From assembly GCF_003432075.1 (NCBI RefSeq), contig NZ_QWBU01000003.1, positions 186,001 through 250,000 of the forward strand: a stretch of 64,000 bases of DNA. Reading direction: 5' to 3'. A program made the translations under genes and the position numbers. Below, piece by piece: positions 7,867 to 39,918 of the stretch. Within the stretch, counting starts at the first letter, position 1. The number at the start of each line of letters is the position of its first letter. Below the pieces are notes generated by a model that worked only from the letters and a program-made list of their open reading frames with translations, was not told the DNA's origin and ran no database searches. Source of the DNA: Shinella sp. WSJ-2. Its GTDB lineage: Bacteria > Pseudomonadota > Alphaproteobacteria > Rhizobiales > Rhizobiaceae.

Positions 7867-7897
7867 TGCTGAGAGCAGCTCCTCATCCGGATAGACC

Positions 7898-8959
7898 ATG
7901 AAGCTCTTCACCTGCGAAACCTGCGGCCAGACCACCCATTTCGACAATCGCCTCTGCGTGCGCTGCGGCTCCTCGCTCGGCTTTCTCTCTGAGGATATGA
8001 CCCTGCATGCGCTCGTTCCGGAAGGCGAGGGGTTGTGGCGGATATCTCCGCGGGAGGGGCTTTACCGTTTCTGCGACAACGCCGTGCAGGACGTCTGCAA
8101 CTGGATCCTTCCGGCGGATAGCGCGCACGCCTTCTGCCCGGCCTGCCGGCACAACCGCATCGTGCCGACGACCGACCCCAAGGGCTTGGAGCGCTGGCGG
8201 CGCATCGGCGCTGCGCAACGCCATCTCTTCTACTCCATCCTGCGCTGGAACCTGCCGCATCCGACGCGCGAGGAGGATCCTGCCGGCGGCCTCGTCTTCG
8301 ATTTCCTCGCCGACGAACTGGATGCAGGTGGCAATGTCGTGGCCGCCGCCATGACCGGCCACGAGGACGGCCTGATCAGCCTGCGCGCGGCCGAAGCCGA
8401 TGACGAGGTGCGCGAAAGCGTTCGCGTCTCCATGCACGAGCCCTACCGCACATTGCTCGGCCATTTCCGCCACGAGATCGGTCATTTCTATTGGACGCAG
8501 CTCATCCGTGACGACGCGACCTTGGAGGAGGCGCGCCGCCTGTTCGGCGACGAGCGCGAGGACTATGCCGCCGCCCTGCAGCGTAATTACGAGCAGGGGC
8601 CGCCAGCTGACTGGCCGCTGCATTTCATAAGTACCTATGCGAGCTGCCACCCGTCAGAGGATTTCGCCGAGTGCTGGGCGCATTTCTTCCACATCGTCGA
8701 TACATTGGAAACCGCGCGCGCCTTCGGTCTCAACACGGATCCGAAGGGTCACGAGGAGCTCGAAGCCGAAATCACCTTCGACCCCTACCGTGCGCCGAGT
8801 GCCGGACGTCTCGTCGAAAGCTGGATCCCGCTTTCCGTCGCCATGAACGCCATCCAGCGCTCCATGGGCCAGCCCGACAGCTACCCCTTCGTGCTGCCGC
8901 CGACAGTCGTCGAAAAACTCGATTTCATCAACCGGCTGGTGCGTCAATCGGCGGGGTAG
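7898..8959 (+). CDS. Putative zinc-binding metallopeptidase with N-terminal zinc ribbon
   Basis: A 353-residue protein with an N-terminal zinc-ribbon (Cys6, Cys9, Cys20, Cys23), a second cysteine set (Cys59, Cys67, Cys80, Cys83), and a metallopeptidase-like HEIGH motif at residues 192-196. It looks like the putative zinc-binding metallopeptidase family (zinc-ribbon plus DUF2248-type) seen in proteobacteria. A downstream EDFAECWAHFFH stretch could supply a further metal ligand. No signal peptide is seen, so it is probably cytosolic. Substrate and activity are unknown. Confidence 0.8.
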   Translation: MKLFTCETCGQTTHFDNRLCVRCGSSLGFLSEDMTLHALVPEGEGLWRISPREGLYRFCDNAVQDVCNWILPADSAHAFCPACRHNRIVPTTDPKGLERWRRIGAAQRHLFYSILRWNLPHPTREEDPAGGLVFDFLADELDAGGNVVAAAMTGHEDGLISLRAAEADDEVRESVRVSMHEPYRTLLGHFRHEIGHFYWTQLIRDDATLEEARRLFGDEREDYAAALQRNYEQGPPADWPLHFISTYASCHPSEDFAECWAHFFHIVDTLETARAFGLNTDPKGHEELEAEITFDPYRAPSAGRLVESWIPLSVAMNAIQRSMGQPDSYPFVLPPTVVEKLDFINRLVRQSAG

Positions 8960-13555: not shown

Positions 13556-14848
13556 TCAACTCGCCGCGCGGTCGATCGTTCCGCGCGACAGCGAGCGGGT
13601 GATGTCGCCGGTCGGGACGAGGTGTTCGAGCGGGCCGATGGCCGAGATCGTCGGGACGGTGTCGAAGAACAGGCGGCCGGCGAGGTCGGTCAGGCGCTCG
13701 ACGGTGATGCCCTGCAGGCGTTCCATCAGCTCTTCATTCGGGATCGGGCGGCCGTAGAGCATCATCTGGCGGGCGATCTGGCCGGCGCGGGCGGCCGGGC
13801 TTTCCTGGCCCATCAGAAGCTGGGCGCGGATTTGCGCACGCGCGCGCTCGATTTCCTGCTGGTGGATGGTTTCCGACGACTTCTTCAGCTCGTCGAAGAT
13901 GACGGGCATCAGTTCCGGCAGGTTCTCGCCGCCGGTCGCGGCATGGATGCCGAAGATGCCGGTATCGGAAAAGCCCCAGTGGAAGGCGTAGATCGAATAA
14001 CACAGGCCGCGATGCTCACGCACTTCTTGGAAGAGGCGGGAGGACATGCCGCCGCCGAGGATGTTGGCGAGAATCTGCGAACAGTAGAAATCGCGGGCAT
14101 GATAGGCCTTGCCCTCGAAGCCGAGCAGCACCTGCGCATCCATCAGGTCGCGCGTCTCGCGCACGTCGCCGCCGGTATAGCGGGCGGGTTCGAAGACCGG
14201 CGAGACTTTTGGCGCGGTGGGCAGGCTGGCGAAGCGCGTCTCGACCTGGCGGACGAAATCGTCATGATCGACGGCGCCGGCCGCGACGACGAACATGCGG
14301 TCCGTCGTGTAGTTGCGGTCGAGATAGCTGCGGATTTCGCCGGGCGAGAAGGAGAGCACGGTTTCCGGCGTGCCGAGAATGGCGCGGCCGATGATCTGGT
14401 CGCGATAGGCGACCTCGGAGAACTTGTCGAAGACCACGTCGTCGGGCGTGTCGTTCGCAGCACCGATCTCCTGCAGGATGACGTGTTTCTCGCGGCGCAG
14501 TTCCTCGTCGTCGAAGACGGATTCCGTCAGGATGTCGGCGAGGATATCGACCGCGAGCGGGACGTGGTCCTTCAGCACGCGGGCATAGTAGGAGGTGGTT
14601 TCCGTCGAGGTGGCGGCGTTGACTTCGCCGCCGACATTTTCGATTTCCTCGGCGATCTGGCGGGCGGAGCGGCGCTCGGTGCCCTTGAAGGCCATGTGTT
14701 CCAGGAGGTGGGCGATGCCGTGCTCGTCCGCGGTTTCGTTTCGCGACCCCGACTTGATCCATACGCCGAGAGCCACACTCTCGAGATGGGGCATGTTTTC
14801 GGTCACCACGGTCAACCCGGAAGCAAGCCGGGTGCACTCAACTTTCAT
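13556..14848 (-). CDS. M16 family zinc peptidase (mitochondrial processing peptidase-like)
   Basis: A 430-residue inverzincin. The inverted zinc motif HLLEH spans residues 47-51 (HGIAHLLEHMAFKG), with the distal Glu in the REKHVILQEI segment. Features of the processing-peptidase branch are ALGVWIKSGSRNE at the start and the glycine-rich GGGMSSRLFQEVRE loop, plus RGLCYSIYAFHWGFSDTG. The protein lacks a signal peptide. The frame extends upstream to 14923, but the family begins at MKVECTRLASGL, so ATG 14848 (or adjacent ATG 14851) is preferred. It is followed downstream by thrC in the same orientation on its upstream side. Confidence 0.93.
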   Translation of the reverse strand: MKVECTRLASGLTVVTENMPHLESVALGVWIKSGSRNETADEHGIAHLLEHMAFKGTERRSARQIAEEIENVGGEVNAATSTETTSYYARVLKDHVPLAVDILADILTESVFDDEELRREKHVILQEIGAANDTPDDVVFDKFSEVAYRDQIIGRAILGTPETVLSFSPGEIRSYLDRNYTTDRMFVVAAGAVDHDDFVRQVETRFASLPTAPKVSPVFEPARYTGGDVRETRDLMDAQVLLGFEGKAYHARDFYCSQILANILGGGMSSRLFQEVREHRGLCYSIYAFHWGFSDTGIFGIHAATGGENLPELMPVIFDELKKSSETIHQQEIERARAQIRAQLLMGQESPAARAGQIARQMMLYGRPIPNEELMERLQGITVERLTDLAGRLFFDTVPTISAIGPLEHLVPTGDITRSLSRGTIDRAAS

Positions 14849-14952
14849 CATGCGCACTTTCTGCGTTTTTAGCCTTTCCGCCGCCCGCGGGAAACCGGAA
14901 AGGCCCTCCCTGTAAACACGCAATGCCGGGTGCAGCCGCTCCCGGCCTCGCC

Positions 14953-16356
14953 CTAGCCCCGGATTCGCGAATGGTTGCCGATGAAGGCTTCCACGACGTC
15001 GAGCTCAGCGCTCAGCACGTCAAAACGCTCCTCCCTTTGCATCAGGTCAGCAAGCCACGATGGAAGCGCCGGGTCAATACCGCACGCCGATTTTACTGCG
15101 GCGGGGAATTTTGCCGGATGCGCGGTGGCGAGCGTCACCATCGGAGCGCCCGGTTTCTCGTGCCTTGCGGCGACGAAGACGCCGATCGCCGAATGCGGAT
15201 CGAGCAGGTAGCCGGTGTCGGCGAGCGTCGTCTTGATGGTTTTCGCGACCTCCTTCTCCGAGGCACGGCCGGCGCGGAACTCCTTGCGGATCGCCTTCAG
15301 CGCCTTTTCCTCGATCTCGAAGGCACCGGATTGCTTGAGGCTGTCCATCGCGCGGCGCACCGCACCGGCATCGCGGCCATGGGCCTCGAACAGCAGGCGT
15401 TCGAAATTGGAGGAGATCTGGATGTCCATCGACGGCGAGGTGGTCGCCTTGACGCCCTTCATCTCGTAGCGGCCCGTCTTCATCGTGCGGGCGAGAATGT
15501 CGTTCTCGTTGGTGGCGATGACCAGCTTGTCGATCGGCAGGCCCATGCGCTTGGCGCCGTAGCCGGCGAAGATATCGCCGAAATTGCCGGTGGGAACGGT
15601 GAAGGAGACCTTCCGGTCCGGTGCGCCGAGGGCAACGGCCGTCGTGAAGTAATAGACGATCTGGGCCATGATGCGCGCCCAGTTGATCGAGTTGACGCCC
15701 GAAAGCTTCATGCCGTCGCGGAATTTCGTGTCGTTGAACATCGCCTTCACGAGATTCTGGCAGTCGTCGAAATTGCCCTTTATGGCGAGCGCGTGGACGT
15801 TCTTTTCTTTGGAGGTGGTCATCTGGCGCTGCTGCACCGGCGAGACCTTGCCCTCGGGGAAGAGGATGAAGATATCGGTGCGCTCGCGGCCGGCAAAGGC
15901 GTCGATGGCGGCACCACCGGTATCGCCCGAGGTCGCGCCGACGATGGTGGCGCGCTCGCCGCGCACGGAAAGCGCATGGTCCATCAGGCGGGCGAGCAGC
16001 TGCATCGCCACGTCCTTGAAGGCGAGCGTCGTGCCGTGGAACAGTTCCATGACGAAGGAATTCGGGCCGATCTGCACGAGCGGCGCGATCGCCGGATGGC
16101 GGAAGGTGGCATAGGCCTCGTCGATCATCGCCCGGAATTTTTCCGCCGGGATGTCACCCTCGACGAAGGGCGAGAGAACCGTAAACGCGATCTCCTGGTA
16201 GGACTTGCCGCGCAGCGCCCGGATCTCCTTCTTGGAGAAGGTCGGCCATTCGCGCGGCACATAGAGGCCGCCGTCGCGGGCAAGCCCGGCGAGAAGCGCA
16301 TCGGAGAAGCCGAGGGAAGGGGCCTCGCCCCGCGTCGAAACATAATCCACGTTCAC
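14953..16356 (-). CDS. thrC: Threonine synthase
   Basis: PLP-dependent enzyme that turns O-phosphohomoserine into L-threonine; its substrate is made by ThrB at 3595-4560. The PLP lysine lies in HGTTLAFKDVAMQLL, and GATSGDTGGAA and FTVPTGNFGDIFAGY form the cofactor phosphate and glycine loops. The 467-residue length is typical. I chose GTG 16356 because AAGGA sits just upstream and the family starts near VDYVSTRGEAP; an ATG 42 bases upstream would add a non-conserved tail. The gene is upstream of the M16 peptidase and probably cotranscribed with it. Confidence 0.95.
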   Translation of the reverse strand: MNVDYVSTRGEAPSLGFSDALLAGLARDGGLYVPREWPTFSKKEIRALRGKSYQEIAFTVLSPFVEGDIPAEKFRAMIDEAYATFRHPAIAPLVQIGPNSFVMELFHGTTLAFKDVAMQLLARLMDHALSVRGERATIVGATSGDTGGAAIDAFAGRERTDIFILFPEGKVSPVQQRQMTTSKEKNVHALAIKGNFDDCQNLVKAMFNDTKFRDGMKLSGVNSINWARIMAQIVYYFTTAVALGAPDRKVSFTVPTGNFGDIFAGYGAKRMGLPIDKLVIATNENDILARTMKTGRYEMKGVKATTSPSMDIQISSNFERLLFEAHGRDAGAVRRAMDSLKQSGAFEIEEKALKAIRKEFRAGRASEKEVAKTIKTTLADTGYLLDPHSAIGVFVAARHEKPGAPMVTLATAHPAKFPAAVKSACGIDPALPSWLADLMQREERFDVLSAELDVVEAFIGNHSRIRG

Positions 16357-36723: not shown

Positions 36724-37667
36724 GAGCCCGGCGCCGGGAAATAGAGTCCGTGCAGCGAGGGCGGCCCCTCGGTCACCACCTCGCCGCGGGCGACGAGATC
36801 CTCCAGATGCGCCAACACCGAAAGCGCCGCCGCACCGTGCAGCCGCGGATCGGTCTCGCGGTAGATGACCTTCACCATGTCGGCGATCAGCCGGTCGCCC
36901 GCCCGGATGCGCTCGCGCACCGCCCGCTCGCGCATGCGCCGATGGGTGCGCAAGCCGCGCAGGAACGAGGCCGGCTCGCTGACCGGTCCGCCATGACCGG
37001 GAAAATAAATGCGGTCGTCGCGTTCCAGCAGCCGTTCCAGCGAGGCCATGTAGTCCGCCATGGCGCCATCGGGCGGTGCGACGATGGTCGTCGCCCAGGC
37101 CATGACATGGTCGGCGGAAAACACGATGCCATCGGGACCGTCGAGCGCGAAGGCCGCATGGTTGGCCGTGTGGCCGGGCGTGAGCAGCGCCGTCAGCGCC
37201 CAGCCGTCGCCCTCCACGCGCTGACCGTGGCCAAGCGCGATATCGGGCACGAAGTCGATGTCGGAACTCTCGGCAAAGGGGTTGCTCTCGCCCTCATGCA
37301 GCGGACGCGCCGCCCGGTGCGGCCCCTCGGCGACGATGATCGCACCGGTTTCCGCCTTCAGCCGGCGGGCAAGCGGAGAATGGTCGCGGTGGGTGTGGCT
37401 GACGGCGATATGCGTCACCTCCCGGCCGGCAAGCGCGCGCATCAGCGCGGCGAAATGCGCCTCGTCCTCCGGCCCGGGGTCGAGGACGGCGACGGATTTG
37501 CCGCCGACGATATAGCTGTTCGTGCCGTGAAAGGTGAAGGGGCTTGGATTGTTGACGGTGAGGCGCTGCACGCCCGGCGCGACAGACACCGCCTCGCCAT
37601 AGGCCGGCTTGAACTCAAGGTCGAAGCGCGGCGCGTCGTCTTGCGATATATTCGACACGGCGGTCAC
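36720..37667 (-). CDS. Metallo-beta-lactamase fold hydrolase
   Basis: A 315-residue MBL hydrolase with the metal motif HxHxDH (VSHTHRDHSPL), a TPGHTANHA segment, VFSADHVM and a final FPGHGG. Such proteins include glyoxalase II-like and lactamase-like enzymes; this one resembles LACTB2-type members. I take GTG 37667, which overlaps the cupin stop by four bases (GTGA); GTG 37658 is another choice. The upstream cupin gene is in the same operon. Confidence 0.88.
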   Translation of the reverse strand: MTAVSNISQDDAPRFDLEFKPAYGEAVSVAPGVQRLTVNNPSPFTFHGTNSYIVGGKSVAVLDPGPEDEAHFAALMRALAGREVTHIAVSHTHRDHSPLARRLKAETGAIIVAEGPHRAARPLHEGESNPFAESSDIDFVPDIALGHGQRVEGDGWALTALLTPGHTANHAAFALDGPDGIVFSADHVMAWATTIVAPPDGAMADYMASLERLLERDDRIYFPGHGGPVSEPASFLRGLRTHRRMRERAVRERIRAGDRLIADMVKVIYRETDPRLHGAAALSVLAHLEDLVARGEVVTEGPPSLHGLYFPAPGS

Positions 37668-37963
37668 TTGTATTCGATTTCGATAAAGCTCATCGGCTTG
37701 TCGCCGCCATTGACGACATTGTGCGCCACGCCCGCCTCGCGCCGGTAAACCGCGCCGGTCTTCGTATGTACGCGCCGCTCGCCCGTCTCCTCCTCGATCA
37801 AGAAGTCGCAATCCGTCATCGGCACGACGACGTAGCCGAGTCCGTGCACGTGATGGCCGGTATCGGCGCCCGGCGCGAAATCCCAGCGCGTGACGCGCAC
37901 GACGGTATCGTCGAGAAGAACGGTGGGCACGGCTGGTGGACGGGCACGAAACTGGGACATCAT
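37664..37963 (-). CDS. Small cupin protein
   Basis: A 99-residue cupin: TRWDFAPGADTGHHVHGLGYVVVP carries two or three metal-ligand histidines, and the second motif is REAGVAHNVVNGG. Small cupins of this type are often linked to environmental or detoxification genes; substrate unknown. It is the first gene of a two-gene operon with the MBL hydrolase. Confidence 0.84.
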   Translation of the reverse strand: MMSQFRARPPAVPTVLLDDTVVRVTRWDFAPGADTGHHVHGLGYVVVPMTDCDFLIEEETGERRVHTKTGAVYRREAGVAHNVVNGGDKPMSFIEIEYK

Positions 37964-38171: not shown

Positions 38172-38246
38172 TGGGGCGTCGCCAAGCGGTAAGGCACCGG
38201 TTTTTGGTACCGGCATTCCCAGGTTCGAATCCTGGCGCCCCAGCCA
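38172..38246 (+). tRNA. tRNA-Gln (TTG)
   Basis: The acceptor arm TGGGGCG pairs with CGCCCCA (perfect 7 bp); the discriminator is G and the CCA is encoded. The anticodon stem ACCGG/CCGGT (in order CCGGT-loop-ACCGG) encloses the loop TTTTGGT with anticodon TTG. The T arm has GGTTCGAAT. It is on the plus strand, between the cupin operon and the DMSP-lyase-like gene. Confidence 0.96.
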
Positions 38247-38458
38247 CGCGGCTCGTTTCCAGAGACACAATCGATTTCGATCCGCTTCGCCCGTGCCATG
38301 CGGTTTGATGGGCTTCACCACAAATGAATGTCGCTAGGCTGCAAAAGTCGTCGAATCGCATTGATTTCAAGCGAATTCTCCTTCATTCCGGTTGACCATC
38401 ACCGGCCCCATCCAAGGCCGGGATCACCCCGTCGTTTTTGACATGTCGGATGAAACGC

Positions 38459-39154
38459 ATGACCTCATTGAACCGGCGCAAACAGGAAAGCAGGGACCCG
38501 TTCCTGGCGGGGCCGGCGGTTGCGGCGCGGGGGGGAAGCCGCTCTTGGGGCGGGCGACCGAGGGCGTTGCAGCATGTCATTGATGCGATGGGCAATGTGG
38601 TCGTATCGCCGGCCTCGCCGCTGATGGCGAATTTCACCGGCTGCAAGGTGATCCACAAGCTGCAGAAGCCGGGCGCCCATGTGACGGCCGCGGGCGATCC
38701 CGCCATCAAGGGCGCGCGTCCGGCAAGCTTCGACACGGCGCTGCGCCTTCTCTCCAAGCAGGGCGCCCAGGGGCGGGGGCTCTCCGAGGCGCTTGCCGAG
38801 CTGCGGGATGCCATGGTCTGGCATCAGGGACCGGCCGGGCCTTATGCCAGCGTGAATTTCGAGCGCGACCATGCGCATGCCGTGCTGATCGGCGAACATG
38901 GCCTGGAGCAGCGCAGCGACGTCCGCATCGGCCTGACCCTGCTTGCGCCCTATACGCGCTTTCCCGATTTCATCCAGCCTTACCCGTCCGTCGTTCTTCC
39001 ACTGACGGACGGCGAGTTCACGCTTGAAGCCGGCGACTGGAGCCGGCGCCGTCTCGGCACGGCGCTGCACTATCCGGCGGGAGGCCATTTTGCCGTTCGC
39101 TCGACAGCCCGGCCGCTGATGATGCTGTGGGCGCATCTTCTGCAAAGCCGCTGA
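38459..39154 (+). CDS. DMSP-lyase-like cupin, probable inactive metal site
   Basis: A protein of about 231 residues whose C-terminal cupin half resembles the dimethylsulfoniopropionate lyase family (DddL/DddQ-like, Pfam DMSP_lyase): RIGLTLLAPYTRFPDF, VVLPLTDGEFTLEAGDW, ALHYPAGGHFAVRS and MMLWAHLL. Active relatives carry YPxHxxPxEE-like histidines and glutamate after TLLAP; here the positions read FPDFIQPYPS, so the usual His/His/Glu ligands are missing. The start is uncertain: ATG 38459 is used, TTG 38438 and ATG 38450 are alternatives. Confidence 0.62.
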   Translation: MTSLNRRKQESRDPFLAGPAVAARGGSRSWGGRPRALQHVIDAMGNVVVSPASPLMANFTGCKVIHKLQKPGAHVTAAGDPAIKGARPASFDTALRLLSKQGAQGRGLSEALAELRDAMVWHQGPAGPYASVNFERDHAHAVLIGEHGLEQRSDVRIGLTLLAPYTRFPDFIQPYPSVVLPLTDGEFTLEAGDWSRRRLGTALHYPAGGHFAVRSTARPLMMLWAHLLQSR

Positions 39155-39160
39155 CGGCGT

Positions 39161-39901
39161 TTAAACCAGGCTACCGAGCGGGATGAGCTCCTTCGCTCCC
39201 GCGCGCCATTCGTTCCCCTCCCAGTCGCCTAGCCAGCGGTCCACCCGCAGGCCGGCCTCGGCCATCAATGCTTCCAGCTCGGCTTTTTCCGGAAACGCGA
39301 TGCGCGAGGCGGCCGAGAGGCGCTTGCCCGTCGCCTGGATTTCATAGTGGGTGCCGTAGGTGACGATGCCTGTGGCAGGGTCTTCGCTGACATCGTTCCA
39401 GGCAGAGACGGCGCCGAAGCGCGGATGCTCGACGGTGCGCAGCGATTCCTGCGGCCCCCATTCCTCCCATTCGCGGCAGGCGGGATTGCGGCTGTCGAAG
39501 AGGAAGCGGCCGCGGGGGGCGAGATGGGCGGCGATGGTGGCGAGCGCCGCGCGGCGGTCCTCCGGCGTCAGGAAGACCTGGAAGGCGTGGCCGGTGAGAA
39601 GCACGAGATCGAAGCGGCGGCCAAGCCGCAGCGTGCGTGCATCGCCCTCGATGAATTCCGCCGTGCCCGGTTTGGCCCGTGCGATCTCCAGCATGGCGGG
39701 AGCCGGATCGACGCCGACGACCGTGCGCCCCTCCGCCAGCGCCACGGCAAGTTCACCGGTGCCGCAGCCGAGATCGAGCACGCTTGCGGCATCCTTGGCC
39801 AGCGACAGGCAATAGGCGAAATCGGGCGAGCGCGACCAGCCGTTTTCGAGATCGTAGAAATCGGCGAGTTCGGGGTCGTGATAGAGACGGTCTTCCTGCA
39901 T
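39161..39901 (-). CDS. Class I SAM-dependent methyltransferase
   Basis: A 246-residue methyltransferase. Motif I is VLDLGCGTGELA, motif post I VGVDPAPAML, and later FDLVLLTGHAFQVF. The C-terminal half is the usual substrate-binding part of methyltransferase type 11/25 proteins. ATG 39901 has GGAGG five bases upstream; the TTG 12 bases earlier overlaps that site. It is the only gene between convergent DMSP-lyase-like and a terminator. Substrate unknown. Confidence 0.87.
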   Translation of the reverse strand: MQEDRLYHDPELADFYDLENGWSRSPDFAYCLSLAKDAASVLDLGCGTGELAVALAEGRTVVGVDPAPAMLEIARAKPGTAEFIEGDARTLRLGRRFDLVLLTGHAFQVFLTPEDRRAALATIAAHLAPRGRFLFDSRNPACREWEEWGPQESLRTVEHPRFGAVSAWNDVSEDPATGIVTYGTHYEIQATGKRLSAASRIAFPEKAELEALMAEAGLRVDRWLGDWEGNEWRAGAKELIPLGSLV

Positions 39902-39918
39902 TGTGTCCTCCAAATGAA

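Follow-up and report, generated by a model that had tools for sequence, protein, structure and literature searches.

The gene at 38459..39154 (+) of the window, that is, of the whole 64-kb stretch of DNA analysed here, encodes a cupin of the DMSP_lyase family (PF16867) which can be regarded with high confidence as an intact member of a clade of Rhizobiaceae proteins in whose ancestor the metal site of the family was lost once. According to the account that we prefer, and to which we assign a probability of about 50%, the clade arose by duplication within an operon, and its members would act as metal-free binding or accessory cupins. The window protein would not cleave DMSP and, judged from its residues, is very unlikely to make DMS; a different function, within the catabolism of betaines or of N-methylated amino acids, is more likely.

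The gene is almost certainly real and intact. Its coding sequence runs on the + strand from the ATG at 38459 to the stop codon at 39152-39154 (231 amino acids), exactly where the preliminary description had placed it, and alternative in-frame starts are found on the same strand at ATG 38450 and TTG 38438. The assignment is based on the reading frame, on the Pfam match to PF16867 (74.9 bits, E 7.9e-21, with a curated cut-off of 27 bits) and on a length equal to that of annotated relatives; NCBIfam, and the PDB when searched by sequence, gave no match with the window protein. The open run on the strand of the gene covers 252 codons, and of 2000 mononucleotide shuffles 18 gave a run at least as long. 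The start region had been called poorly defined, and it still is: codon use is atypical over the first 46 codons, the weakest stretch of the gene, and clear homology starts only at RPRALQ (~38549), with weaker similarity (DP..., WGxRP) upstream. The per-codon score of 0.11 is low, inside the range of the reference set, composed of genes of the 64-kb window (minimum 0.04, median 0.41).

The active site of DddQ comprises Tyr120, His123, His125, Glu129, Tyr131 and His163, and the equivalents of its metal ligands in DddW are His81, His83, Glu87 and His121, where any one of the mutations H81A, H83A, E87A and H121A leaves the enzyme inactive and with less iron (PMC4437653). All six DddQ residues are changed in the aligned window protein (Y120F, H123F, H125Q, E129S, Y131V and H163F), which bears out the initial suspicion of a cupin without the usual metal ligands: the His/His/Glu of motif 1 is F/Q/S and the His of motif 2 is Phe. 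Within the former cupin motif 1, FIQPYPSVV (38969..38995, +; delimited by alignment, with the roles of the DddQ residues taken from PMC4437653), Phe at 38969-71 stands for His123, Gln at 38975-77 for His125, Ser at 38987-89 for Glu129 and Val at 38993-95 for Tyr131, all on the + strand, so that canonical Rhizobiaceae paralogues show RYPDHDHAPEETY where the window protein shows RFPDFIQPYPSVV. Motif 2 reads GIRHAMRS in the canonical paralogues and GGHFAVRS in the window, and at 39086..39091 (+) the His (39086-88) is off by one residue, as had been noticed earlier, with Phe (39089-91) in the ligand position of His163. Tyr120 is replaced by the Phe at 38960-38962, inside the (nearly) clade-invariant PYTRFPD (38948..38968, +). 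Membership of PF16867 and the predicted fold could speak for a working DMSP lyase with its ligands elsewhere in the protein, but with six of six active-site residues changed, and with single alanine mutants of the equivalent DddW ligands already devoid of activity (PMC4437653), such an enzyme is highly improbable.

The same columns were counted over 93 proteins, comprising 57 canonical homologues, the window protein and 35 other clade members. Canonical homologues keep Tyr120, His123, His125, Glu129 and His163 in 57/57 cases and Tyr131 in 56/57, while among the other 35 clade members Tyr120, Glu129 and His163 are kept by none and His125 by a single one, the rest having mostly Gln. In these 35 proteins the Tyr120 column holds Phe in 34 and Leu in the remaining one, the Glu129 column holds Arg (30) or Thr (5) where the window has Ser, and the His163 column holds Phe, Val, Leu or others, the window having Phe. 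His123, on the other hand, is present in 33 of them (otherwise Tyr), and the Phe of the window copy probably reflects one further ligand lost in this copy. The clade also has conserved residues of its own. An HxH pair, HAH at 38870..38878 (+) in the window and by alignment a candidate new functional site, is present in the window protein and in 34/35 other members, where most canonical paralogues have H-x-N; the Tyr of PYxRF and the Arg before Cys are each found in 35/35 other members. The window protein carries both the clade-specific HxH and PYxRFPD and keeps 15 of the 15 columns that show no variation among the other members, while the Cys of RCT and the Cys of WC, kept by most members, are absent from it.

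An AlphaFold2 model of the window protein, computed with 23 relatives, reached a mean pLDDT of 71, with ~80-88 in the barrel and low values around the HxH, and DddQ entries were among its best PDB matches (TM 0.5-0.6). For a clade member from R. subbaraonis (L085; pLDDT 78, pTM 0.79), the six best PDB matches were all DddQ structures, with TM up to 0.72 over ~200 columns, and in this model a confidently predicted strand (140-146) begins with the HAH. Since the L085 model fits DddQ over its full length, the clade protein is predicted to have the whole DddQ architecture, a helical N-terminus together with the cupin barrel, beyond a generic barrel. A search of the PDB with the clade profile gave only a weak DddQ match, beside chance matches.

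In a maximum-likelihood tree of the 93 proteins, from which the metal-site columns had been removed, a single branch (100/100, stem 1.28) separates all 36 metal-site-less proteins (the window protein and the 35 others) from the rest, and the canonical Rhizobiaceae paralogues form a branch of their own. The window protein is placed inside the clade, on a long end branch of 0.74, and groups there with sequences from Rhizobium vallis and Agrobacterium cucumeris (100/93). The loss of the metal site is therefore shared with 35 other Rhizobiaceae proteins, and according to the tree it happened once, in the ancestor of a clade confined to this family. Scores against the clade profile are bimodal, with at least 195 bits in the clade and at most 133 in all ligand-bearing relatives. 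Of 396 Rhizobiaceae genomes, 13 contained a protein with a clade-level score; 384 further alphaproteobacterial genomes contained none, their matches amounting to at most 131 bits and having intact ligands; PF16867 was matched by all 25 clade members scanned. An alignment-based scan of genome contigs recovered 24 loci, a single-sequence scan of genome contigs recovered none, and the viral contigs scanned contained no relative, for which reason a viral origin of the gene was rejected.

The preliminary description had left the choice between a pseudoenzyme, a different activity and a decayed gene. The first two are supported by a site loss ancestral to the whole Rhizobiaceae clade, while the third does not hold as the main reading. 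Pairwise dN/dS of 0.01-0.17 (Nei-Gojobori) indicates that the clade has been kept by strong purifying selection; the figure refers to pairs of other clade members at 69-99.6% identity, as no close orthologue of the window gene was found among 21 Shinella genomes. It could still be argued that the window gene is an orphan of the clade that is dying or under recently relaxed selection, as it has lost His123 and both clade Cys, shows weak codon use at its 5′ end, lies outside any operon and sits on its long end branch. However, its reading frame is intact, with every clade-invariant site kept, its per-codon score stays within the reference range, near the low end, and in only 6 of 400 simulations did the frame stay free of stops when it drifted neutrally as far as 45% amino-acid change, which together make recent decay improbable.

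The neighbourhoods of relatives give indications of what the clade may do. The pair etfB-etfA lies immediately upstream in 10 of the 36 members, with etfA-to-cupin spacers of 12-15 bp at three loci, and because the tree requires five or more changes to account for this distribution, the link to ETF is either old or has arisen repeatedly. On pRL12 of R. johnstonii 3841 and in Rhizobium sp. NXC14, the genes follow one another in a fixed series that starts with a betaine ABC transporter, a P5CR-like gene and a TetR gene, then continues with an NADH:flavin oxidoreductase (PF00724), the canonical cupin, etfB, etfA and the metal-site-less cupin, and ends with formaldehyde oxidation genes. Such a layout would be expected of an N-demethylation pathway, with proline betaine as a possible substrate. 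The canonical and the metal-site-less cupin share an operon in these two strains and in two further genomes (G213 and G077), other strains have etfB-etfA-metal-site-less cupin beside an ETF-quinone oxidoreductase or other dehydrogenases, and two Shinella relatives (L164, L166) have the operon with the canonical cupin only. Catabolic dehydrogenases, oxidases and ABC transporters are repeatedly found next to clade members. That all of them serve one pathway is nevertheless not proved, since the neighbours of most non-ETF members differ, including a HutH-like lyase accompanied by an N-methyl-amino-acid oxidase, ornithine-cyclodeaminase-like enzymes, a 2OG oxygenase and regulators. In Rhizobium vallis (L069), two different metal-site-less cupin genes (7890-8648 and 14331-15173) were found ~6 kb apart in one catabolic cluster.

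We suggest that the clade originated when a metal-binding cupin gene was duplicated within an ETF-linked operon for demethylation of betaines or N-methyl amino acids, of the order flavin oxidoreductase - canonical cupin - etfB - etfA - metal-site-less cupin, and that it later spread to other amino-acid catabolic clusters. The four shared operons could also be read as encoding an active canonical cupin and its inactive partner, joined in a hetero-oligomer. Against this, the operon of R. gallicum M101 (L047 5502-9591) has a frameshifted flavin oxidoreductase, fused etfB/etfA and only a remnant of the canonical cupin, while its metal-site-less gene is intact and hence need not depend on the canonical paralogue. 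Likewise, a canonical PF16867 match is present in only 6 of the first 12 clade-bearing genomes, and the window gene is the only PF16867 gene found in its own genome, a count that carries a caveat because the etfA copies there end at contig breaks. A heteromer with the canonical cupin as the sole role is weakened by the last of these and by the R. gallicum operon, and we consider an inactive partner of this kind improbable.

Binding and dimerisation by cupin barrels without a catalytic metal are known from the CENP-C cupin domain and the sigma-1 receptor. Both were among the fold-search matches, with TM over the query of ~0.35-0.39 and no sequence relation, and they serve as an analogy only. 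In a comparable way, the old barrel pocket of the clade protein might hold a small organic intermediate or a partner protein, and such a binding or accessory role is given a slight preference over new catalysis. The clade-specific conserved His, Tyr, Arg and Cys could equally mark catalysis, in an enzyme of new chemistry that kept the pocket and uses other residues (HxH, PYxRFPD, Arg and mostly Cys), its metal relocated or dispensed with. The near-complete conservation of HxH, of the Tyr of PYxRF and of the Arg, the recurrence of catabolic genes nearby and the position of HAH on the confident strand of the L085 model would fit such an enzyme. On the other hand, the two His are the sole candidates for relocated ligands, no matching acidic residue or third His having been identified, and the region around HxH has low confidence in the window model. 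Furthermore, a Cys-based mechanism cannot be common to the clade, because both Cys have been lost from the window copy. New chemistry is a possible reading, less probable than the metal-free binding or accessory role. More broadly, and somewhat short of even odds, the clade may represent a new metal-free class derived from a lyase-family cupin in ETF-dependent N-demethylation operons, either as a binding or electron-transfer accessory of ETF-linked amine oxidation or with a rebuilt metal-free active site.

Compared with DddQ, DddW and DddL (PDB 4LA2, 5CU1 and 4B29), the clade shares PF16867, the order of segments and the fold, N-terminal helices included (TM 0.72 in the L085 model), but it has neither the metal ligands nor the catalytic Tyr. 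It occurs in terrestrial Rhizobiaceae and in a context of amino-acid and betaine catabolism, whereas the known lyases occur in marine bacteria and among acu/ddd genes. The nearest metal-binding relatives are the canonical Rhizobiaceae paralogues (e.g. RL_RS35500), which have ~30-42% identity to the window protein, keep Y-H-H-E-Y-H and in several species lie in the same operon as the metal-site-less gene, with etfB-etfA between them. Family and fold are known, while a ligand-free or ETF-linked branch of PF16867 was not found described in the literature searched, mostly outside subscription papers, and a review of stachydrine held nothing on a demethylase. Clade members are annotated as 'dimethylsulfonioproprionate lyase family protein', and a label of DMSP lyase invites the mistaken conclusion that bacteria of soil and plants produce DMS. 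A canonical Rhizobiaceae 'dimethylsulfoniopropionate lyase' (L043 6541-7146) was likewise seen in an operon of betaine/N-methyl-amino-acid type, and the annotated activity of the canonical protein is itself doubtful. The clade is a clear-cut example of an essential metal site that was lost once, with purifying selection acting for a long time thereafter, and, as some species have the metal-binding sister in the same operon, its new role is directly testable in tractable rhizobia such as R. johnstonii 3841.

The window copy itself is located between tRNA-Gln(TTG) (38172..38246, +) and a convergent SAM methyltransferase-like gene (39161..39913, -), the latter being a conserved neighbour in Shinella and the right border of the insert. 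By its best DNA matches the window belongs to a Shinella genome, and collinearity with other Shinella is lost immediately downstream of the tRNA gene: homology to Shinella sp. PSBB067 ends at 38248, two bases past it, and picks up again at 39168, within the methyltransferase gene, so the segment 38249..39167 is absent or replaced in other Shinella. The same interval 3′ of tRNA-Gln holds an SDR gene in PSBB067 (L048), 54 bp in another genome (L053) and 315-825 bp in others. The window copy is thus an accessory segment that consists of one gene and occupies a variable site beside a tRNA gene, probably gained as a single gene; gain is likelier than repeated loss, because its relatives sit in other genera. 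As it does not follow etfB-etfA and lies far from ETF and catabolic genes, the operon argument is carried over to it from its relatives. A close flavin oxidoreductase (88%) is present in its own genome, but the rest of the operon does not follow there. The etfA pieces there (L176, L177 and L178) stop at the ends of contigs C24, C26 and C5, and the genes beside them, perhaps including a canonical cupin, may be unassembled. Another small cupin of 99 amino acids was observed on the opposite strand just before tRNA-Gln (37664-37963, -), in the stretch conserved in PSBB067; it has a HHVHGLGYVVVP motif and matches Cupin_2 with 25.5 bits, just below the Pfam cut-off.
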